DNA of 64,000 nt, taken from NCBI GenBank assembly GCA_025463985.1, contig JAODBM010000002.1, positions 124,001 to 188,000 of the forward strand, read 5' to 3'. This document shows positions 31,236-52,232 of the stretch, piece by piece. The stretch comes from Acidimicrobiales bacterium. Its GTDB lineage: Bacteria > Actinomycetota > Acidimicrobiia > Acidimicrobiales > Iamiaceae. Both the position numbers and the translations under genes were made by a program. The notes beneath the pieces were generated by a model. That model was given only the letters and a program-made list of their open reading frames with translations, made no database searches and was not told the DNA's origin. The stretch's first letter is position 1. Each line of letters starts with the position of its first letter.

Positions 31236-31877
31236 GTGGAACCGACGACCCCCGAGCCGCGGGAAGACGTCGCCGAGCGCATCGCCCGCCGCACCCTGGC
31301 GAGCCGTGCCCCCGACTATCCGGGCGAGGTCCGGCGCCTCCTCGACGCCGGCCGAGAGGTCATCCGCCGCTGCGGCACCGAGGCGCGGCCGCGGGTGGCC
31401 GACATCGTGGCCGCCGCCGGGCTGTCGAACGACGCCTTCTACCGGCACTTCACGTCGAAGGACGCCCTCGTCGCCGCCATCCTCGAAGACGGCACCGAGC
31501 GGCTGCGCAGCTACCTCGACCACCAGATGGCGAAGGAGGTGACCCCGGAGGGCAAGCTGCGCCGCTGGGTCGAGGGGGTGCTGTCGCAGGCGGCCGACGA
31601 CGACGTGGCTGCCACCACGCTGGCCGTGCTGTGGAACGCGGACGGTCTCGCCGACGGTCCGGCCGCGGCTCGCGCCCCGCTGGCCACGCTCCTGCACCAG
31701 CCCTTTGCCGCCCTGGGCAGCGTCAACCCCGAGCTCGACGCCTCGCTCGCCGGCCATTGCGTCATCGGTGCCCTCAGCGACTTCCTGTGGCAGCGCTCCC
31801 GGCCGACCCGCGAGGAGATCGAGCACGTGGTCGCCTTCTGCCTCGCCGCGGTGCGCCCGCGAAACCCGAGGCAATAG
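31236..31877 (+). CDS. TetR-family transcriptional regulator
   Basis: ...RPRVADIVAAAGLSNDAFYRHFTSKDALVAAILEDG... Confidence 0.87.
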   Translation: MEPTTPEPREDVAERIARRTLASRAPDYPGEVRRLLDAGREVIRRCGTEARPRVADIVAAAGLSNDAFYRHFTSKDALVAAILEDGTERLRSYLDHQMAKEVTPEGKLRRWVEGVLSQAADDDVAATTLAVLWNADGLADGPAAARAPLATLLHQPFAALGSVNPELDASLAGHCVIGALSDFLWQRSRPTREEIEHVVAFCLAAVRPRNPRQ

Positions 31878-32029
31878 CCCACCGGTTCGGGCGGTCATTG
31901 CCTCGGCTTTTCCGCGAAGGCAATAGCCCCGTCTCGGGCCGTCATTGCCTCGACGCGAAACCCGAGGCAATAGCCCACCGGTTCGGGCCGTCATTGCCTC
32001 GGGTTTTCCGCGAAGGCAATAGCCCCCCG
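31858..32029. repeat. Palindromic repeat array: four ~47-49 nt units with GGCAATAGCCC...GTCATTGCC, forming a 96-nt higher-order direct repeat
   Basis: AGGCAATAGCCC begins at 31869, 31918, 31965, 32014; CGCGAAACCCGAGGCAATAGCCCACCGGTTCGGGC at 31858 and 31954 (period 96) with near-identical continuation. Confidence 0.93.
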
Positions 32030-32071
32030 TCACGACGAGACGCCCGGGCTCGAGAGCCGTTGGCTTGCTAC

Positions 32072-41283: not shown

Positions 41284-42413
41284 TGCAGCTCGACGCGTTC
41301 CGGGCCGCGCTCGACGCGTGGCTCGACGAGCACCAGCACGACCTCGTGCCCGACCACGCGGGCGTGGGCAGCCTCGACGAGCAGATGGCGCACCTGTCCA
41401 AGGTCAAGCGGCTTGCCTTCGACGCCGGCTGGATGCGCTGGGGCTGGCCGGAGGCGGTCGGCGGGCTCGGCGGGTCGACGCTGCTGCGTGCCTACCTCGG
41501 CGAGGCGCTCACGGCCCGGGACCTCGTGGAACCGGGGATCTACTCGATGACCGAGGTCCTGGCTCCGACGATGATCGACTACGCGCCGGCCGAGCTCGCG
41601 GCGGCGATGGTGCCCCGCCTGCTGCGCGGCGACGAGACGTGGTGCCAGGGGTTCTCCGAGCCGGACACCGGCAGCAACCTCGCCTCCCTGTCGTGCCGGG
41701 CGGCCCGCACCGACGCCGGGTGGCGGGTCACGGGTCAGAAGGTGTGGACGAGCCTCGCCCAGTACTCCCAGCGCTGCGTGCTCCTGACCCGGACCGGCAC
41801 GCCCGAGTCGGCCCACAAGGGCATCACCGCCCTGTTCGTCGACATGGACAGCCCGGGGATCACCGTCCGGCCGATCGAGACCATGCATGGCGCCCCGGAG
41901 TTCTCCGAGGTCTTCTTCGACGGCGTCCTGGTGCCGTTCGACCGGACCCTCGGCGAGGAGGGCCAGGGCTGGTCGGTGGCCATGGACCTGCTCCCGTTCG
42001 AGCGGAGCACCGCGCTGTGGCACCGCGCCGCCTACCTCCACCGCCGGTTGGAGCAACTGCTCGGCGCGGCACCGGCCGGCAGCCTCGACGCCGCGGACCT
42101 CGGCGAGGTGACCCAGATCCTGTACGCGTTCCGGGCCCGCTCCCGCGCCACCCAGCACCGTCTGGACGCGGGCGAGCGGCTCGGGCCGGAGACGTCGATC
42201 GACAAGGTGCTGGTCGCCACGGCCGAGCAAGCCGTGTACGACCTCGTCGCCGACGCCCTGCCCGCGGCGGTCACGATCGGTGACGACCCGGCCAGCGAGC
42301 GGTGGCGCACGGGCTTCCTCTACTCCCGGGCCGCGACGATCTACGGCGGCAGCGCCGAGATCCAGCGCAACATCATCGCCCGCCGCCTCCTCGACCTCGG
42401 GAACGACCGGTGA
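41283..42413 (+). CDS. Acyl-CoA dehydrogenase (alpha-type of pair)
   Basis: ...WCQGFSEPDTGSNLASLSCRAARTDAGWRVTGQKVWTSLAQYSQRC...YGGSAEIQRNIIARRLLDLGNDR. Confidence 0.9.
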   Translation: MQLDAFRAALDAWLDEHQHDLVPDHAGVGSLDEQMAHLSKVKRLAFDAGWMRWGWPEAVGGLGGSTLLRAYLGEALTARDLVEPGIYSMTEVLAPTMIDYAPAELAAAMVPRLLRGDETWCQGFSEPDTGSNLASLSCRAARTDAGWRVTGQKVWTSLAQYSQRCVLLTRTGTPESAHKGITALFVDMDSPGITVRPIETMHGAPEFSEVFFDGVLVPFDRTLGEEGQGWSVAMDLLPFERSTALWHRAAYLHRRLEQLLGAAPAGSLDAADLGEVTQILYAFRARSRATQHRLDAGERLGPETSIDKVLVATAEQAVYDLVADALPAAVTIGDDPASERWRTGFLYSRAATIYGGSAEIQRNIIARRLLDLGNDR

Positions 42414-43516
42414 TCGACGGCGCCGACCTCGAGCTCTTCACCCGCAGCCTGCGCCATGCCACCGACAGCAGCACGGGAGCCGCGCTCGACGCCGCCCTCG
42501 ACGACCTCGGCTGGCCGGACGCGCTCGCCGACGACCCGCGCGCCGCCGTCTCGATCCTGTTCGGCCTCCAAGGCGGGGCCAACGCGACCTCGTCCGCCCT
42601 CGACCACGTGCTCCTCGCCGCCCTCGCCCCCCTCACCCCCTTCGCCCCCCTCGAACTGGGCGGAAGCCCGGTCGCCCCAGCAACCGCCATCCCACCCGCC
42701 TCCAACCCCCTCGAACTGGGCGGAAACCCGGTCGCCCCAGCAACCGCCATCCCGCCCAGTTCAGGCGTGGGGGTGGGCGCGGGCGTGGGGGTGGTGCTGC
42801 CGGCGCTTGGCGGGTGGCACCCGCCAGGGGACCTGCGCGGTGGCCGCTTGGCCGTGGCCGGACTCGGCACCGCCGGCCTCGCGCACCGCGCGACGGCCAT
42901 CGTGGTCGCCCGCGCCGGCGACAAGACCGTCGCCGTCGCGGTGCCCACCGCGAGCCTCACGCTCCGTGCGGTGCAGGGCGTCGACCCAGAGCTCGGCCTA
43001 ATCGAGGTGACGGCCGACGGCCTCATCGTGGCGGTCGACCCCGACGCCGACCCCCTGACCGGTTGGACCAACGCCGTGGCCCTCGCCCAGGTCGCCCTCG
43101 GGCACGAGCTGGTGGGCGCGTCGCGCACGATGCTCGACCTCGCCCGCATCCATGCCCTCGAACGGGTCCAGTTCGGCCGGCCGATCAGCGCCTTCCAAGC
43201 CGTCCGTCACCGGCTGGCCGAGACCCTGGTCGCCATCGAGATGGCCGAGGCCCTGCTCGACGCCGCCTGGCTCGACCAGTCACCGCAGACCGCGGCCATG
43301 GCGAAGGCGCTGGCCGGCCGCGGCGCGCGCACCGCGGCCCGCCACTGCCAACAGGTGCTGGCCGGCATCGGCTTCACCACCGAGCACCCGCTCCACCGGT
43401 ACGTCCGGCGGATCCTCGTGCTCGACCAGCTGTACGGCGCCGCCCAGTCCCTCACCGCCGCGCTCGGCACCGAGCTCATCGCCACCCGCCAGCTCCCACC
43501 CCTGCTCCCCCTCTGA
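42410..43516 (+). CDS. Acyl-CoA dehydrogenase (beta-type of pair) containing in-frame repeat insertion
   Basis: GTG 42410 overlaps previous stop; C-terminal ACAD fold ...YDLARIHALERVQFGRPISAFQAVRHRLAETLVAIEMAEALLDAAW... (41283 partner); insert PLELGGSPVAPATAIPPASNPLELGGNPVAPATAIPPSSG. Confidence 0.87.
   Translation: MIDGADLELFTRSLRHATDSSTGAALDAALDDLGWPDALADDPRAAVSILFGLQGGANATSSALDHVLLAALAPLTPFAPLELGGSPVAPATAIPPASNPLELGGNPVAPATAIPPSSGVGVGAGVGVVLPALGGWHPPGDLRGGRLAVAGLGTAGLAHRATAIVVARAGDKTVAVAVPTASLTLRAVQGVDPELGLIEVTADGLIVAVDPDADPLTGWTNAVALAQVALGHELVGASRTMLDLARIHALERVQFGRPISAFQAVRHRLAETLVAIEMAEALLDAAWLDQSPQTAAMAKALAGRGARTAARHCQQVLAGIGFTTEHPLHRYVRRILVLDQLYGAAQSLTAALGTELIATRQLPPLLPL
42648..42762. 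repeat. 60-nt-period tandem repeat with palindromic arms (CGAACTGGGCGG...CCGCCCAGTTC) inside the ACAD coding sequence
   Basis: CTCGAACTGGGCGGAA[G/A]CCCGGTCGCCCCAGCAACCGCCATCCC at about 42650 and 42710 (one mismatch); right arm CCGCCCAGTTC at 42752-42762. Confidence 0.95.
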
Positions 43517-43545
43517 CCCGCCCCCGCCCCCAGCCCACCCCCCAG

Positions 43546-43597
43546 CGAATGTGGAGTAGAAGCGGTTGCCAGGACGACCGCTTCTACTCCACATTCG
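43546..43597. repeat. Perfect 21-bp-arm palindrome between convergent genes (hairpin / possible bidirectional terminator)
   Basis: CGAATGTGGAGTAGAAGCGGT - TGCCAGGACG - ACCGCTTCTACTCCACATTCG. Confidence 0.97.
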
Positions 43598-43646
43598 GGG
43601 ATCGGGATCGGGATCGGGGTCGGGGGGCGGGGGGCGGGGGGCGGGG
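43597..43646 (+). repeat. G-tract run (GGGATC)n then (GGGGGGC)n, potential G-quadruplex
   Basis: ggggatcgggatcgggatcggggtcggggggcggggggcggggggcggggtc read directly. Confidence 0.8.
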
Positions 43647-44936
43647 TCAGTGGGCGGGGGTGAGCTCGAGGTGGAGGCGGTTGAGGCCGCGGAGGATGTA
43701 CGTGGGGGCGTACTCGTAGCGGCGGGCGCCGGCCGGGCCGTGGTGGTCGTCGGAGATCCGGATGTCGGCCGTGCGGGCGAGCAAGCGCTCGACGGCGATG
43801 CGTCCCTCGGCCCGGGCCAGGGGACCGCCGGGACAGGTGTGGATCCCATGGCCGAACGCGAGGTGCTCGCGGGCGTTGTCGCGGTCGACGCGGAACGTGG
43901 CGGGCCGGTCGAACCGCCGCGGGTCGCGGTTGGCCGCAGCGTTCAGCACCATCACCGTGGTGCCCGCCGGGATGTCGACCCCGCCGATCGTCGTGGGGAC
44001 GCGTGACAGCCGGAAGTCGCCCTTCACCGGGCTCTCGGTCCGCAGCACCTCCTCCACGAAGTTCGGGATCCGCTCCGGCTCGGCGCGCAGCAGGCGCTGG
44101 AGGTCGGGGTCCTCGCCCAGCAGCTGGAACGCAGCGGCGAGCATGCGGACGGTCGTCTCCTGGCCGGCCCCGAAGAGGTTGGCCGCGACCCGGACCACGT
44201 CGATGACCTCGGGCGTCGAACCGTCGGGGAACGTGGCTTTGGCCAGGCCGGTGAGCACGTCGTCGCGCGGCTCGCGCCGGCGGTCTTCGACGTAGGTCGT
44301 GAACTGCTCGTAGAGGAACTCGAGCGGGCTGTGCGCGAGGGCGTCGTCGCCCGTGCTCCCGACCGCGCTCTTCGACCGGTGCCCTCCTTGGAGTCGATCC
44401 CGGAAGCGCTGGTGGTCCGACTCGGGGACGCCGAGCAGGTCGGCGATCACGAGCAGGGTGAACGGGCCGGCGAAGTCCCGCACCAGCTCGCACTCGCCGC
44501 GGGCGAGCACCTCGTCGATCTGCCGGTCGGCGAGGCACCACATGGCCTCCTCGTTCTGCTTCAGCCGCAGGGGCGTGAGCAGCCGCATCAGCAGCATCCG
44601 ATGGTCCTTGTGCCGCGGCGGGTCCATCGTGGGGAGCTGGTCGCTCATCGGCAGCTCGTCGCGGTGCTGCTCGATGAGCGCGCTGACGTCGTCGCCCTCG
44701 AGCGGGACGGGGAACCCTGGGAACGGCCCGGTGACCGCGTTGCACGACGAGAACGTGGCGGTGTCGTGGTACACGGCGAGCGCCTCCTCGTAGCCGGTCA
44801 CCATGACGACGTCGTGGTGGGGCTCGCGCTGCACCGGGCAGCGGTCGCGGAGGTGGTCGAGGTACGGGTACGGGTCGTCGACCACCGACGCGTCACGGAA
44901 GAAGTCGATCGCGTCGAAGTCGCTCATGTGGGTCAT
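43647..44936 (-). CDS. Cytochrome P450
   Basis: Heme motif LAFGHGIHTCPGGPLARAEG; I-helix FGAGQETTVRM; ExxR EEVLRTE. Confidence 0.94.
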   Translation of the reverse strand: MTHMSDFDAIDFFRDASVVDDPYPYLDHLRDRCPVQREPHHDVVMVTGYEEALAVYHDTATFSSCNAVTGPFPGFPVPLEGDDVSALIEQHRDELPMSDQLPTMDPPRHKDHRMLLMRLLTPLRLKQNEEAMWCLADRQIDEVLARGECELVRDFAGPFTLLVIADLLGVPESDHQRFRDRLQGGHRSKSAVGSTGDDALAHSPLEFLYEQFTTYVEDRRREPRDDVLTGLAKATFPDGSTPEVIDVVRVAANLFGAGQETTVRMLAAAFQLLGEDPDLQRLLRAEPERIPNFVEEVLRTESPVKGDFRLSRVPTTIGGVDIPAGTTVMVLNAAANRDPRRFDRPATFRVDRDNAREHLAFGHGIHTCPGGPLARAEGRIAVERLLARTADIRISDDHHGPAGARRYEYAPTYILRGLNRLHLELTPAH

Positions 44937-45709
44937 CCCTTGTCGAGGAAGCGGTCGAGGTTGGCGCGCAGCTCAGGTGACGTGAACGACCGGTCCTCGG
45001 CGGCGAGGGCGAAGTCGATGGTCGCCAGCACGGCGCGCTCCATGTGGAGGTTGAGGAGGCGCTTGGTGTCCTCGGTGGCCCGCCGTGGCAGCTTGGCGAT
45101 GCGGTGCGCACAGGCCAGCGCCTGCTCCAGCACGTCGCCGTCCGGGCACACGTGGTTGACGAGACCGATCTGGGCGGCGCGGGCCGCCGGGATCCTGTCG
45201 CCGGTCAACGCGTACTCCTTGGCCAGCTGCATGCTGATGAGCAGGGGCCAGGTGATCGGACCGCCATCGGCGGCCACCAGGCCGACCGCCACGTGCGGGT
45301 CGGCGAGGTAGGCGCCCTCGGCCATGAAGACGATGTCGGAGAGCGCGACGAGGCTGCAGCCGAGCCCGACGGCCGGGCCGTTGACGGCCGCGACCACGGG
45401 GACGCGGCAGGCGAGCATGCGCGTGACGATCGCCTTCCCGTCGACGAGCGACTCCTCCCGCAGCCCCGCGTCCTTCGTGAGCTCGTCGATGTAGCTCATG
45501 TCGCCTCCAGCCGAGAAGGCCCGGCCGTTGCCGGTGAGCACGACGGCCCGTGCCTCGAGGTCGGCGTCGACCTGCGGCCACAGCTCGGCCAGTCCACGGT
45601 GCAGCTCGCGGTTGGTGGCGTTGAGCTGCTCGGGCCGGTTCAGGCGGACGATCCGGACGGCGCCGTCGGCCTCGACCTCGATGGCGCCCGGCACGTCGTA
45701 GCCCGTCAT
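44933..45709 (-). CDS. Enoyl-CoA hydratase/isomerase
   Basis: VRIVRLNRPEQLNATNRELH...FSAGGDMSYIDEL...AAVNGPAVGLGCSLVALSDIVFMAEGAYLADPHVAVGLVAADGG. Confidence 0.92.
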   Translation of the reverse strand: MTGYDVPGAIEVEADGAVRIVRLNRPEQLNATNRELHRGLAELWPQVDADLEARAVVLTGNGRAFSAGGDMSYIDELTKDAGLREESLVDGKAIVTRMLACRVPVVAAVNGPAVGLGCSLVALSDIVFMAEGAYLADPHVAVGLVAADGGPITWPLLISMQLAKEYALTGDRIPAARAAQIGLVNHVCPDGDVLEQALACAHRIAKLPRRATEDTKRLLNLHMERAVLATIDFALAAEDRSFTSPELRANLDRFLDKG

Positions 45710-46833
45710 GCGGGCAGCCCGAGGATGCGGCGGGCGACGAGGTTGCGCTGGATCTGCGAGGTGCCGCCCATGACGCTCTGGGCCCGGCTGTAGAGGTACA
45801 CCTTCAGCGCCGTGTCGTCGGCGTCGCCGTGGCCGGTGCCACCGATGCCGAGGGCGGCGTGGCCCACGGCCTGCTCGACCTGGGTCATCAGCAACTTGTC
45901 GACCGAGCCCTCGGGGCCGTGCGAGACCCCATCGAGGCGGTCCGACAAGCGGCGGCACACGTGTAGCCGCAGCATCTCGGCCTCGACGATCGCCCACCCG
46001 AGGTCGCGGGTCTGCTCGGCGTCGTAGGCCTCCGGGTTGGCGCGCACGTGCGTGGCCAGCTCCTTCACCACCTTCTTGTAGCGGGACACGTAGCCGAGCT
46101 CGCCGGGCTCCCGCTCGTGGCTGACGACGGTCATGGCCAGCGGCCAGCCCTCGCCGGGCGCGCCGATCATGTTGGCCGCCGGCACCCGGGCGCCGTCGAA
46201 GATGACCTCGCCGAACTCCTTGGTGATGCCGTTGATCATCTTGAGCGGCCGCTGCTCGATGCCGGGCTGGCCCATGGGCACGACGAACGCCGAGATCCCC
46301 TTGTGCTTCGGCACGTCGTGATCGGTGCGGGCGAGGACGAGGCACCAGTCGGCGTCGTCGGAGTAGCTGGTCCAGACCTTGTGGCCGGTGAGCACGTAGT
46401 CGTCGCCGTCGCGGTCGGCACGGGTCCGGAGGGCGGCGAGGTCCGAGCCGGCGTCGGGCTCGCTGAAGCCCTGGCACCACCGCTCCCGGCCGCTGACGAT
46501 GCCGGGAAGGAACCGCTGCTGGATGTCCTCGTTGCCGTGCTCGAGGATGCCCTGCACCAGGTAGCCGAGGCTGGGCCGCGGCGGCGTGCCGGCGGCGGCG
46601 AGCTCTTCATCGAGGATCACGTCGAACACGCTTGGCAGCTCCTGGCCACCGATGGCCTTGGGCCACGACATGCCGAAGAAGCCGGCGTCGTAGAGCGCCT
46701 GGTGCCAGGCCGGCTGGCCGCGCCAGTACGCGTCGTCGGTCGAGGACGCGGGCAGGCCGGGGTCGTTGTCGGCCAGCCAGGCCCGGAGCCGCGCCCGGAG
46801 CTCGGCCTCGTCAGGCGAGTCGCCGAAGTTCAT
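45706..46833 (-). CDS. Acyl-CoA dehydrogenase (alpha-type of second pair)
   Basis: MNFGDSPDEAELRARLRAWL...[45 protein letters not shown]...VMGGTSQIQRNLVARRILGLPA. Confidence 0.92.
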   Translation of the reverse strand: MNFGDSPDEAELRARLRAWLADNDPGLPASSTDDAYWRGQPAWHQALYDAGFFGMSWPKAIGGQELPSVFDVILDEELAAAGTPPRPSLGYLVQGILEHGNEDIQQRFLPGIVSGRERWCQGFSEPDAGSDLAALRTRADRDGDDYVLTGHKVWTSYSDDADWCLVLARTDHDVPKHKGISAFVVPMGQPGIEQRPLKMINGITKEFGEVIFDGARVPAANMIGAPGEGWPLAMTVVSHEREPGELGYVSRYKKVVKELATHVRANPEAYDAEQTRDLGWAIVEAEMLRLHVCRRLSDRLDGVSHGPEGSVDKLLMTQVEQAVGHAALGIGGTGHGDADDTALKVYLYSRAQSVMGGTSQIQRNLVARRILGLPA

Positions 46834-47867
46834 CGTGAGCTGCCGATGCCGTGGTGGTCGAGGACCCGCGCCAGGTTGGCGCCGGCACCGCCGAGCACGT
46901 CGCTCGACATGAGCGCGCGCCGGAGGAAGACGTGGGCCAGGCACTCCCAGGTGTTGCCGATGCCGCCGTGCACCTGGACGGCGGTCTCGCACACGGTGCG
47001 GGCGGCGCGGGCGCAGTACGCCTTGGCCAGCGCGCCCGCGGCCAGCGCCTCGTCGGGCGGCAGGGCATCGACCGCCCACGCGGCGTGGAGCGCGACGCTC
47101 CTCGACCCCTCCATAGCGACGAACGCGTCTGCGAGCAGGTGCTGGACCGCCTGGAACGAGCCGATGGCCGCGCCGTACTGCCTGCGGTCGACGGCGTAGT
47201 CGCGGGCCAGCTGGACGGCACCGCGCATGACCCCGACCAGGTCCGCGCACGTCAGCGCCAGCCCGAGCGCCGTCCACGAGGTGACGTCGTGATCGGTGAG
47301 CACCCGGGCCTGGTCGGCGAGGGGCGCCGGCGTCCCCGACGGCACGGCGGTGGGGCGGGTGAGGTCGGTGCGCTCGTCGACCGGTCGCACGGCCACCTCG
47401 GCCAGCATGTGGCCGCCACCGGCGGCGAGGAGCACGAGCGCAGTGCCGGCCCCCTCCGCGTCGATCGCCACCGCGCCGTCGAGCACCACCGCGCCGTCGA
47501 GCGCCGCGGCTACGACCGGTGACGACAGACCCCGGGCGAGCAGGACGGTCTCGGCACCGGTCGCAAGTGGGGCGCCTGCGAGCCGCCGGAGCTCGGCAGA
47601 CAGGGTCGGCCCGAGGAACGGCGCGTCGACGAGGCCGCGCCCGAGCTCCTCCGCGACGATCGCCGCCTCCACGCCGGACGCGAGGGGCTGGCCACCGTCC
47701 TCGGCCGCGCGCAGGTCGCGCCAGCCGGACGCCGCGATCGCGGCGTCGAGCTTCGCGGCGCGCTCGGGGTCGTCGAGCTGCCGGACGGCCTTGGGCCCCA
47801 AGCGATCGACGACCTGCGCCACCGAGTCGCGCAGCGCGTGCTGCTCCGGGGACAGACGCACATCCAT
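46830..47867 (-). CDS. Acyl-CoA dehydrogenase (beta-type of second pair)
   Basis: [24 protein letters not shown]...RDYAVDRRQYGAAIGSFQAVQHLLADAFVAMEGSRS...QVHGGIGNTWECLAHVFLRRA. Confidence 0.9.
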   Translation of the reverse strand: MDVRLSPEQHALRDSVAQVVDRLGPKAVRQLDDPERAAKLDAAIAASGWRDLRAAEDGGQPLASGVEAAIVAEELGRGLVDAPFLGPTLSAELRRLAGAPLATGAETVLLARGLSSPVVAAALDGAVVLDGAVAIDAEGAGTALVLLAAGGGHMLAEVAVRPVDERTDLTRPTAVPSGTPAPLADQARVLTDHDVTSWTALGLALTCADLVGVMRGAVQLARDYAVDRRQYGAAIGSFQAVQHLLADAFVAMEGSRSVALHAAWAVDALPPDEALAAGALAKAYCARAARTVCETAVQVHGGIGNTWECLAHVFLRRALMSSDVLGGAGANLARVLDHHGIGSSR

Positions 47868-49384
47868 CAGTCGGCCTTCCGCGCTGCGAGCAGCGACGGC
47901 GTCCACTCCTCGCGCAACGTCCGGCGCAGCGCCTTCCCGGACGGAAGCCTCGGAATGGCATCGACGACCACGACGTGGCGGAGGTGCTTGTAGGTCGCGA
48001 GCGAGTCGGCGATGAGCTGGCGGATCTCGCCGTCGGCGACCACGACGCCGGCGTCGAGCTGGACGGCGGCCACGGGCACCTCGCCCGCCCGCTCGTCCGG
48101 GAGGCCGAAGACGGCGCAGTCGAGCACGGCCCGGTGGCCGAGGAGCACGGCCTCGATCTCCGCCGGCGCCACCTGGAAGCCGTTGACCTTGATCATCTCC
48201 TTCGAGCGGTCGGTGAGGTGCACCCACCCCTCCGCCTCCAGCCAGCCGACGTCGCCCGTGCGGTACCAGCCGTCGGCGAACCCCTCGGCCGTCGCCTCGT
48301 CGGGGAGGTACCCGGCCATGACGGACTCGCTGCGGACCTGGATCTCGCCGGTCTCACCCGGCGGCAGGACCGCGCCCGTCGCGAGGTCGGCGACCCGCAG
48401 CTCGACGCCCGCGGGCGGCAGGCCGGCCGAGTCCAGCCGCCACCGGTCGGGCCGGTCGACCGGGTTGCAGGCGATGACCGGCAGCTCGCTGGCGCCGTAG
48501 GCCGGCAGCCACGGCACGCCCGTGCGCTTGGTGACGAGCTGGGCGACGCTCTCGGTGACGGGGGTCGCGCCCCACATGATGTAGCGCAGCGACGAGAGGT
48601 CGTAGGCCTCGATGTTCGGATGGTTCGCCATCGCGAGGGCGATCGGCGCGACGGCCATCTCCAGCGTCATGCGGTCGCTCTCGATGCGCCGCAGCACCTC
48701 GTCGAGGTCGAACCGCGGGTGCAGCCTGACGGTCGCCCCGGCCTCGGCGGCCGCCAGCAGGTTGAGCAGTCCGAGGATGTGCGACGGCGGCGTCGCGACC
48801 TGGAAGCGGTCGTCGGGACCCAAGCCGAGCACCTCGCACCAGTGCCTGGTCGCGTGCCACATCGAGCGGTGGGTGTGGCGCACGGCCTTCGGGAGCCCGG
48901 TGGTGCCCGAGCTGAACACGAGCACCGACTCGTCGGTGTCGTGCACCGGGAGGTCCAGCGGGCCGGGGTCGCGGGCCAGCGCGGCGTCCATGACCGGTCG
49001 GTCGTCGAGGTCGGTCACCGGCAGCCGCTCCGCGAGCAGCGCGACGGCGGCGCCGTCGGCGACCGCGTGGATCGGACGCGTCAGGTCGAGCGCGTGGCCT
49101 ACCTCGACGGTCTTCCAGGCCGGGCTGAGGAGCACGGCCGCGGCGCCGAGCTTGCTGATCGCGTTCACCGCGACCACGAACTCCACGCGGTTGCTGGTCA
49201 TGACCGCGACGCGCTGGTGCGCCGCCACCCCGGCCGCCGCGAGGTGGCGCCCGAACGCGTTGCTCAGCCGGTCGAGGTCGCGGAACGACCAGGCGTCGTC
49301 ACCGGCCCGGAGGGCGGCGCGGCCACCGAACCGGCCGGCGGCCCGCTCGAGCCCCCGGTGCATCAAGGCCCCCATCGGGAGCAT
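47867..49384 (-). CDS. AMP-dependent acyl-CoA synthetase
   Basis: [19 protein letters not shown]...[15 protein letters not shown]...[39 protein letters not shown]. Confidence 0.92.
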
Positions 49385-49439
49385 TCTTCTCTCTATCCGA
49401 GAGGCGAGTCAACACAGATGGACATATAGAGTTCTCGTC

Positions 49440-50591
49440 ATGTCCGCCACCGATGCCGATGTCCGCCGCGAGATCATCGAGACCGTTCGCCGGTTCGTCA
49501 CCAAGGAGGTCGTGCCCGTCGCGTCCGACTTCGAGCGGGACGACCGCTTCCCCGCCGAGATCGTCGCCCAGATGCGCGCGCTCGGCCTGTTCGGGGTCAC
49601 CATCCCCGAGTCCTACGGCGGCCTCGGCCTCGACCTGCTCACCTACATCGGGGTGATCGAAGAGCTGGCGTACGGGTGGATGAGCCTCACCGGCATCATC
49701 AACACGCACACGATGGCGGCCACGCTGATCATGGCCCACGGCACCGAGGAGCAGCAGCGGCGGTGGCTGCCGTCGATGGCCGCCGGTGATCGCCGGGGCG
49801 CGCTGTCGCTCTCGGAGCCCGACGCGGGCAGCGACGCCCGCAACATCTCCTGCAAGGCCGTGCGCGACGGCGACGAGTACGTCCTCAACGGCACCAAGGC
49901 CTGGGTCACCAACGGCGAGCGGGCGAGCATCGTGGCGCTCGCGGCGCGGACCGAGGAGGGCATCTCGGCCTTCATCGTCGAGAAGGAGCCCGGCGAGACG
50001 TTCGAGGGGATCTCGGTCAGCAAGCACGTCGGCAAGCTCGGCTACAAGGGCGTGGAGACGGTCGAGATGGCGTACGTCGACCACCGCATCCCCGCCGCCA
50101 ACCTCATCGGCGAGGCCGGGCGCGGCCTGCCCCAGATCCTCGGCGTGCTCGAGGTGGGCCGCATCAACATCGCGTCGCGGGCCGTCGGCGTGGCCCGGGC
50201 GGCGTTCGACGCGGCGCTGAGCTACGCCCAGCAGCGCGTCTCCATGGGCAAGCCGATCGCCGAGCACCAGGCCATCCAGCTCAAGCTCGCCGACATGGCC
50301 ACCCGCCTCGAGGCGGCCCGCCTCCTCACCAAGAACGCCGCAGAGCGCAAGGCGGCTGGCCTGCGCTGCGACGTCGAGGCCGGCATGGCCAAGCTGTTCG
50401 CCAGCGAGACCGCGCTCGAGTTGGCCATCGAGGCGATGCGGATCCACGGCGGCATGGGGTACACGACCGACCTGCCGGTCGAGCGCTACTACCGCGACGC
50501 GCCGCTCATGATCATCGGCGAGGGCACCAACGAGATCCAGCGCCTGGTGATCGCCCGCGGCCTGCTGGCCCGGGCCGCGGCCAAGGGCTGA
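49440..50591 (+). CDS. Acyl-CoA dehydrogenase
   Basis: [38 protein letters not shown]...[39 protein letters not shown]...[27 protein letters not shown]. Confidence 0.94.
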
Positions 50592-50597
50592 GCACCT

Positions 50598-50649
50598 CGA
50601 ACTGGGCGCGACTGCGGTCGCCAGGGCGACCGAGTCCCCGCCCAGTTCG
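50598..50649. repeat. Palindromic element between convergent genes: CGAACTGGGCG ... CGGTCGCC-AG-GGCGACCG ... CGCCCAGTTCG
   Basis: Arms 50598-50608/50639-50649, GACT/AGTC 50610-50613/50633-50636, core 50615-50622/50625-50632. Confidence 0.95.
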
Positions 50650-50660
50650 GGGGTTTCGGG

Positions 50661-52232
50661 TCAGGGTGTGGTGGCCGGGGGGACGCGGGCCCGCAGCACG
50701 TCCTTCATCACCTTGCCAGTGGCGTTCAGCGGCAGCTCGTCGACCAGCTCGATCGCCCGGGGCACCTTGTAGTTGGCCATCTGGGCGCGGCTCCACTCGC
50801 TGATGTCGGGACCGGTCGTGGCGGCGCCGGCGCGGACGACGACGAACGCCATGCCCACCTCGCCGAGCCGCGCGTCGGGGACGCCGATCACCGAGGCCTG
50901 GTGGATGTCGGGGTGTCGAAGCAGGGCGTTCTCGATCTCGGCGGGGTACGCGTTGAAGCCGCCGACGATGAACATGTCCTTCGACCGGCCGACGATCTGC
51001 AGGCAGCCGGCGTCGGTCAGCACGCCGAGGTCGCCCGTCCGCAGCCAGCCGTCCTCCGACAGCGCCTGGGCCGTCGCCTCGGGGTCGTCGAGGTAGTGCG
51101 ACATGATGCTGCCGCCACGGAGCAGGATCTCGCCCGGCTCCCCCGCTGGCACCTCCGCGCCGTCGCCGTCGACGATGCGCAGCTCGAATCCCGGGCGGGG
51201 CCGACCGACGGTGGTGGCGATCGTCTCGACGTCGTCGCCCAGCGAGGTCGCCGCCGCCGTGCCGCCCTCGGTGAGGCCGTAGCCGGTGATGATCGTGGGG
51301 AACGGCAGCTCGTCGACCACCCGCCGGATCAGCTCGACCGGGATGTCGGCGGCGCCGGTCACCGCGACCCGCAGGCTCGACAGGTCGTGGCGGCCGCGGT
51401 CGGGGTGATCGAGGATCGACTGGTAGAGCGTGGGCGCCCCCGGCAGCACGGTCACCTGCTCGGCCGCGACCCGCGCCAGCACGCGGTCGACGTCGAACAC
51501 CGCTTCGGGGAGCATCGTGGCGCCGGCCGCGACCGACGCGAGGATCCCGGCCTTCAACCCGAACATGTGGAAGTACGGGTTGACCATGAGGTACCGGTCG
51601 CCGGCGGCGAGGCCGGTCATCGCCACCCAGTCGGTGGCGACGCGCAGCGTGCTGCCATGGGTCTGCACGACGCCCTTCGGCACGCCCGTGGTGCCCGACG
51701 TGAACAGGATGTCGGAGACGTCGTCGGTGCTCACGGCGGTGCTGCGGCGGCCCGCCTCGAGGCAGGCCTCGTCGGTCGCCTGCGCCAGGAAGCCGCTCCA
51801 CGACGACGTCCCGAACGGCGCCGGGCCGCGGGCGATCACGATGGTCCGGAGGTCGGGCAGCTTGACCCCGCTCGCCCGCAGCATCGCGACGTAGTCGGTG
51901 CCGAGGAAGTCGGTGACCGTCACGAGCGTCGTGACGCGGCTCCGGGCCAGGATCTCCGCCGCCTCGGCGCCCTTGAACCGCGTGTTCACGGGCACGAGCT
52001 CCGCGCCCGCCTCGAACAGGCCGAGCAGGGCCACGATCCACTCGGCGCTGTTGAACGCCCAGATGCCGACGCGGTCCCCGCGTTCGACCCCCGACGCGAC
52101 GAGGGCGGCACCGAAGCGCTGGGCCTGGTCGAGCAGCTCGGCGTACGTGAGCCGGGTGTCGCCGTCGACGACCGCGAGCCGGTCGCCGTACCGGTCGACG
52201 GTCGCGGCGACCAACGCCGGCACCGTGGTCAA
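50661..52232 (-). CDS. AMP-dependent acyl-CoA synthetase (FadD-like)
   Basis: ILFTSGTTGVPKGVVQTHGS...TGYGLTEGGTAAATSLGDD...WLRTGDLGVLTDAGCLQIVGRSKDMFIVGGFNAYPAEIENALL; probable TTG start 52232 (or GTG 52223). Confidence 0.92.
   Translation of the reverse strand: MTTVPALVAATVDRYGDRLAVVDGDTRLTYAELLDQAQRFGAALVASGVERGDRVGIWAFNSAEWIVALLGLFEAGAELVPVNTRFKGAEAAEILARSRVTTLVTVTDFLGTDYVAMLRASGVKLPDLRTIVIARGPAPFGTSSWSGFLAQATDEACLEAGRRSTAVSTDDVSDILFTSGTTGVPKGVVQTHGSTLRVATDWVAMTGLAAGDRYLMVNPYFHMFGLKAGILASVAAGATMLPEAVFDVDRVLARVAAEQVTVLPGAPTLYQSILDHPDRGRHDLSSLRVAVTGAADIPVELIRRVVDELPFPTIITGYGLTEGGTAAATSLGDDVETIATTVGRPRPGFELRIVDGDGAEVPAGEPGEILLRGGSIMSHYLDDPEATAQALSEDGWLRTGDLGVLTDAGCLQIVGRSKDMFIVGGFNAYPAEIENALLRHPDIHQASVIGVPDARLGEVGMAFVVVRAGAATTGPDISEWSRAQMANYKVPRAIELVDELPLNATGKVMKDVLRARVPPATTP

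Follow-up and report, generated by a model that had tools for sequence, protein, structure and literature searches.

The 52-bp hairpin at positions 43546–43597 of the window (the whole 64-kb stretch of DNA that was analysed, part of the 4.19-Mb Acidimicrobiales draft genome labelled G000) is probably one of a family of short non-autonomous mobile palindromes with a REP-like way of life, which was not found in the literature searched. The mobility of these elements is well supported by sequence comparison, and we infer both the mover and a role in RNA. A mobile REP-like unit had been offered in the initial annotation as one of three functions, next to a bidirectional terminator and a protein-binding hairpin, and it is the best supported of them in view of the filled and empty sites found at four loci.

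Structure of the hairpin and its copies in the window

The features of the window referred to in the text are listed below; no strand is assigned to the elements.

42410–43516, plus strand: ACAD-like gene with a 38-aa insertion from two family B copies (own gene calls, alignment with genome G006)
42652–42703: family B element, first of a tandem pair with a 60-bp period, right arm decayed, within the ACAD gene
42712–42763: family B element, second of the tandem pair, within the ACAD gene
43517–43545: C-rich left flank of the family A element (sequence and flank skew analysis)
43546–43597: family A element, a 52-bp palindrome with stem 43546–43568/43575–43597 and loop 43569–43574
43563–43580: conserved core CGGTTGCCAGGACGACCG, the hairpin tip (core comparisons)
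43598–43646: G-rich right flank of the family A element (sequence and flank skew analysis)
43647–44936, minus strand: cytochrome P450 gene, convergent with the other neighbour of the family A element (own gene calls)
49440–50591, plus strand: gene for an acyl-CoA dehydrogenase, upstream of the 50598 element (own gene calls)
50598–50649: family B element between convergent ACAD (plus) and AMP-ligase (minus) genes; site empty in the relative L202
50661–52223, minus strand: gene for an AMP-binding ligase, converging on the 50598 element (own gene calls)

Re-reading of the letters bore out what had been described initially, namely the sequence and position of the palindrome, the shared CGAA...TTCGGGG ends and the likeness of its core to those at 42669–42686 and 50615–50632. 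As RNA, the element is predicted to form 23 + 23 pairs around a 6-nt loop (−41.7 kcal/mol, z = −11.6 versus shuffles); no other perfect 21-nt inverted repeat is among those listed for the window, and its arm has no other occurrence there. According to the models, the significant copies in the window number exactly four (42652–42703, 42712–42763, 43546–43597 and 50598–50649), all of which fit the same rigid 52-bp design. Besides the three copies named at the outset there is a fourth one at 42712, and the 42652 and 42712 copies both lie inside the ACAD reading frame rather than between genes.

Short tandem GGGATC and GGGGGGC repeats occupy the G-rich side at 43598–43655, and these units beside the hairpin suggest local slippage. 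One of the ACAD proteins of the genome has its nearest matches in Acidimicrobiales/Actinomycetes MAGs.

Copy number and enrichment in the genome

The doubt that the core might not be enriched, or that the three copies might be the only ones, was dispelled by the genome-wide search, in which the core pattern, with 3 mismatches allowed, gave 380 matches versus 86 with the reversed control. When 2 mismatches were allowed, the arm CGAATGTGGAGTAGAAG was matched 72 times (about 37 family A copies) versus 2 times in the control. Paired family A arm matches have a single fixed spacing, which defines a 52-bp unit, and this architecture was matched 29 times in 1.28 Mb of stretches versus twice in simulated sequence. 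Family A arms nearly always occur as such pairs, with a few weak or contig-edge single matches, a pattern that gives no sign of an autonomous parent element.

Family B, with the arm CGAACTGGGCG, has many more genome copies than family A. Profile searches of the 1.28 Mb found 29 family A sites, each single, and 52 family B copies at 27 places, 15 of which are arrays of two to four copies; since the stretches were picked partly for holding matches, densities there are not genome averages. Unlike family A, family B tends toward head-to-tail arrays of two to four copies with a period of mostly 60–74 bp, examples in G000 being L110:10272–10511, L097:19572–19747 and L104:8998–9233.

A chance palindrome or an assembly artefact might be suspected in a draft genome of 238 contigs that is 83% complete, but the enrichment of core, arm and 52-bp architecture over the controls and the homologous elements in the single-contig genomes G016 and G004 are at odds with this reading, which is already refuted and keeps a practically negligible probability.

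Conserved core and private arms

The layout of family A is CGAATGTGGAGTAGAAG CGGTCG N6 CGACCG CTTCTACTCCACATTCG and that of family B is CGAACTGGGCGG N5 CGGTCG N6 CGACCG N5 CCGCCCAGTTCG. Both align without gaps across 52 columns with the elements of relatives, which have the same 52-bp design and the common core GGTCGYYNNGRCGACC but other arms. Arm identity is 0.96 inside family A and 0.72–0.83 inside the other groups, and falls to 0.32–0.45 between family A and all others, whereas core identity between groups (0.68–0.80) stays near the value within them (0.72–0.88). The description as modular elements with a conserved core and exchangeable arms is therefore right, and it holds genome-wide and order-wide: the arms are private to single families or genomes, while the core, the ends and the 52-bp length are common.

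Of 24 genomes from the taxonomic family, 10 contain the design according to a covariance model, though their arms are different ones; in the order, a broader model found it in 13 genomes out of 248, which represent nine families and again differ in their arms, such as CGTTCTGGTCGAATATCTGGTCGC... and GCTTTTGGGCGCGAAATCGGTTGC...; the matches in a phylum-wide sample of 297 genomes were confined to the source genome and one more genome of the order, and absences in these large searches are not firm owing to the strict filters used. The family A arm gave nothing above background in 60 relatives, and its exact 21-mer is absent from the GTDB collection. Comparison across genomes shows family A to have been amplified with new arms inside this lineage.

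Across lineages, paired columns contain 118 double-change cells versus 57 in shuffles, the covariation score is 0.28 versus 0.14, and compensatory pair changes are present between lineages. Within family A no covariation signal was obtained, the copies being too alike to inform, as is expected for young copies.

A short invariant core common across lineages would also be expected if the elements were bound by a chromosome-organising or regulatory protein and had been spread by selection for function. However, this leaves the 23-bp perfect stem and the tandem arrays unexplained, the elements occur only patchily within one bacterial family, and a core-binding protein would not require the near-identity of the family A arms, which makes this explanation quite improbable.

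Filled and empty sites

Insertion is supported by comparison of filled and empty sites at four loci, the relatives compared belonging to other genera, so that gains are inferred across genera. The ACAD gene at 42410–43516 can be aligned from end to end with the orthologue in G006, apart from 38 surplus aa that coincide with the two tandem family B copies read in frame; in the ACAD comparisons, a match in L200 was dropped as an out-of-phase reading frame. The aspartyl-tRNA synthetase encoded by aspS in G000 has the C-terminus ...LGLRVLPPGNVE*, which lies within a family A element that supplies the stop codon; the orthologues end in ...LLPKKSS*, ...LLPRSN*, ...TLPKAT* or ...VLPRAT*, and no such element was found in the sequence 3′ of their stops. 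The convergent ACAD/ligase junction holds the 50598 copy in the window and only a short gap in L202, in which the neighbouring genes are 90% and 83% identical, and no significant element was detected in any of the 44 related loci. In the opposite direction, one junction of tandem genes, which we take by their sequence to be panC and panD, has an element in G006 and is empty in G000.

Nine family A copies give the neighbouring gene an ending of NVE followed by the stop TAG (element positions 12–14), always in the same frame. These unrelated genes, found at L059, L070, L071, L072, L101, L123, L124, L126 and L127, include the aspartyl-tRNA synthetase, Ham1-like and SpoU-methylase genes.

Placement and flanking sequences

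According to our own codon-usage gene calls, on which all placement counts rest, the median distance of the elements to flanking 3′ ends is 12 bp (family A) and 15 bp (family B), and to 5′ ends 52 and 48 bp, respectively. The position relative to convergent genes, a check proposed in the initial annotation, proved to be enriched for both families: convergent junctions account for 10 of the 28 sites of family A (p = 0.003) and 12 of the 24 of family B (p = 2e-5), as opposed to the 13.6% predicted from intergenic length. Fewer elements than predicted lie in divergent regions, which nevertheless contain eight sites.

This placement gives some weight to an immobile origin, in which the hairpins would be bidirectional terminators or 3′-end processing signals that owe their likeness within a genome to selection and gene conversion: the hairpin is very stable and readable on both strands, it lies close to stop codons with enrichment at convergent junctions, and on either strand it is preceded by a C-rich stretch of the kind that Rho sites favour. 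Against it stand the copies inside a gene and between divergent genes, the empty orthologous junctions (that of aspS included), the missing T tract and the family A arms, which are more alike than pairing needs and have no covariation within the family. Intrinsic (U-tract) terminators resemble the elements in being stable hairpins just past stop codons, often between convergent genes, but differ from them in the T tract, in the near-identity of the copies and in the insertion within genes. In the region 42000–51500 of the window, no terminator-like site with a U-tract was found, and the Rfam 15 covariance models gave no match at E ≤ 1. The proposal of a bidirectional terminator thus fails for the classical U-tract type, while a role in termination or at the mRNA end is plausible from the 3′-end placement; as the origin of the elements, a fixed signal of this kind is unlikely.

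Over the first 15 bp on each side the flanks are strongly skewed, C-rich before and G-rich after the element, and the skew decays over about 60 bp. It occurs in convergent, tandem and divergent contexts as well as in G016, G004 and G006, whereas intergenic inverted repeats of other kinds have little or none of it. The flanks share this composition and a weak CCACCCC/GGGGTGG tendency; no signal of complementarity or of templated stem extension into the flanks was seen beyond composition, and flush direct repeats of up to 3 bp, looked for as target-site duplications, were not in excess over swapped flanks. It is therefore more likely that the flanks reflect the target or later selection than that they are copied as part of the unit.

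Comparison with known repeats

Most prokaryotic REPs belong to the GTAG or CGTC super-families, of which the CGTC one has no transposase and takes in the Rickettsia palindromic elements (RPEs) that insert into coding genes; their stems are 5–13 bp long, a one-sided tag is defining, Actinobacteria are never mentioned, and how CGTC REPs spread is left unanswered (PMC3733652). Like GTAG REPs and REPINs, the elements are small, dispersed, lineage-specific palindromes situated mainly downstream of genes and in convergent or unidirectional gaps (PMC3733652), and they occur as many extragenic copies. They differ in the lack of a Y1 transposase in the element-rich genomes, in having the hairpin tip conserved rather than an unpaired GTAG foot, in the 23-bp stem (5–13 bp in REPs) and in the absence of the inverted two-hairpin pairing of REPINs. 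With CGTC REPs, including RPE-4 and RPE-6, they have in common the lack of a dedicated transposase and the in-frame gene insertion (PMC3733652), seen here as the 38 aa in the ACAD gene at 42410–43516, but they have neither the CGTC foot nor the CCA tail, and the stems of CGTC REPs are 8–9 bp with loops of 4–5.

Movement as classical REPs or REPINs by a RAYT (Y1 transposase) would agree with the small size, palindromic form, dispersal, extragenic position, lineage specificity and occasional clustering known from REPs (PMC3733652). The RAYT whose presence had been suggested was searched for as Y1_Tnp (PF01797) and was not found in G000 (83% complete), nor in the element-rich G006 and the likewise element-rich single-contig genomes G016 and G004, while the same search gave matches in five of the control genomes. 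Conversely, of two genomes with Y1 proteins, G010 has one weak element and G015 none at the thresholds used. No unpaired GTAG end tag was detected, the ends being CGAA...TTCG followed by C/G-rich flanks and GTAG occurring only inside the family A stem; nor does the flank composition contain a CGTC foot or a CCA-like tail. The RAYT explanation is largely refuted by these comparisons and appears highly improbable. Having the way of life of REPs but failing the tests for tag and RAYT, the elements are filed as a new REP-like family in neither super-family.

MITEs are likewise non-autonomous, dispersed and built of inverted repeats; here, by contrast, there is no target-site duplication, no transposase gene sharing the ends was found, and the whole unit is stem. 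The attC site of integrons is a folded palindrome with a variable inner sequence and conserved set points. The likeness of our elements to it is in working only, as their ends, read by eye, do not have the attC R/L box consensus. A search of the literature for palindromic repeats in Acidimicrobiia or Actinobacteria returned nothing relevant.

Two other types of hairpin were observed. An unrelated family with arms GAGGCAATGACC...GGTCATTGCCTC is in tandem at 31862–32034 of the window and dispersed in the genome (L065:3917–3965, L071:9478–9518, L073:9507–9557). In L213, from a MAG labelled Frankiales, a cluster built on GCAATGTGGC lies past position 2146, 3′ of an ACAD gene, and has AATGTGG in common with the family A arms.

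Proposed mode of spread and significance

The conserved tip, ends and length suggest that the elements are recognised as a folded strand with arms free to change together. A trans-acting enzyme would act on the single strand in its folded state, reading the tip sequence GGTCGYYNNGRCGACC together with the CG...CG ends and the geometry. Pairing would be all that is needed of the arms, which could change as a unit, so that each lineage would drift to its private arms. The 3′-end placement may combine an insertion preference for C-rich to G-rich junctions with purifying selection, and part of the bias could be due to selection alone. Once transcribed, the hairpin of about −40 kcal/mol may act as a 3′-UTR barrier in either direction, with exonuclease protection of mRNA ends or assisted factor-dependent termination as plausible roles, which would not be the reason for every copy given those in divergent regions and within genes.

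More tentatively, and with considerable doubt, the elements may represent a new class of palindromic mobile DNA, seen so far only in Acidimicrobiales, whose machinery reads nothing but tip, ends and geometry, whose arms are rewritten jointly (for example by fold-back template switching) and thereby become private, and which inserts at or beside stop codons and can donate a stop.

The elements bear on the question of how tiny palindromes can spread in the absence of a transposase: their design is inverted, with the tip conserved and the arms private, and their placement preference is measurable. Family A, as a young amplification, is suited to catching insertions. The insertions rewrite the C-termini of genes, that of aspartyl-tRNA synthetase included, and annotators of such a genome should read -NVE ends and LELGG.PVAPATAIPP linkers as repeat DNA.
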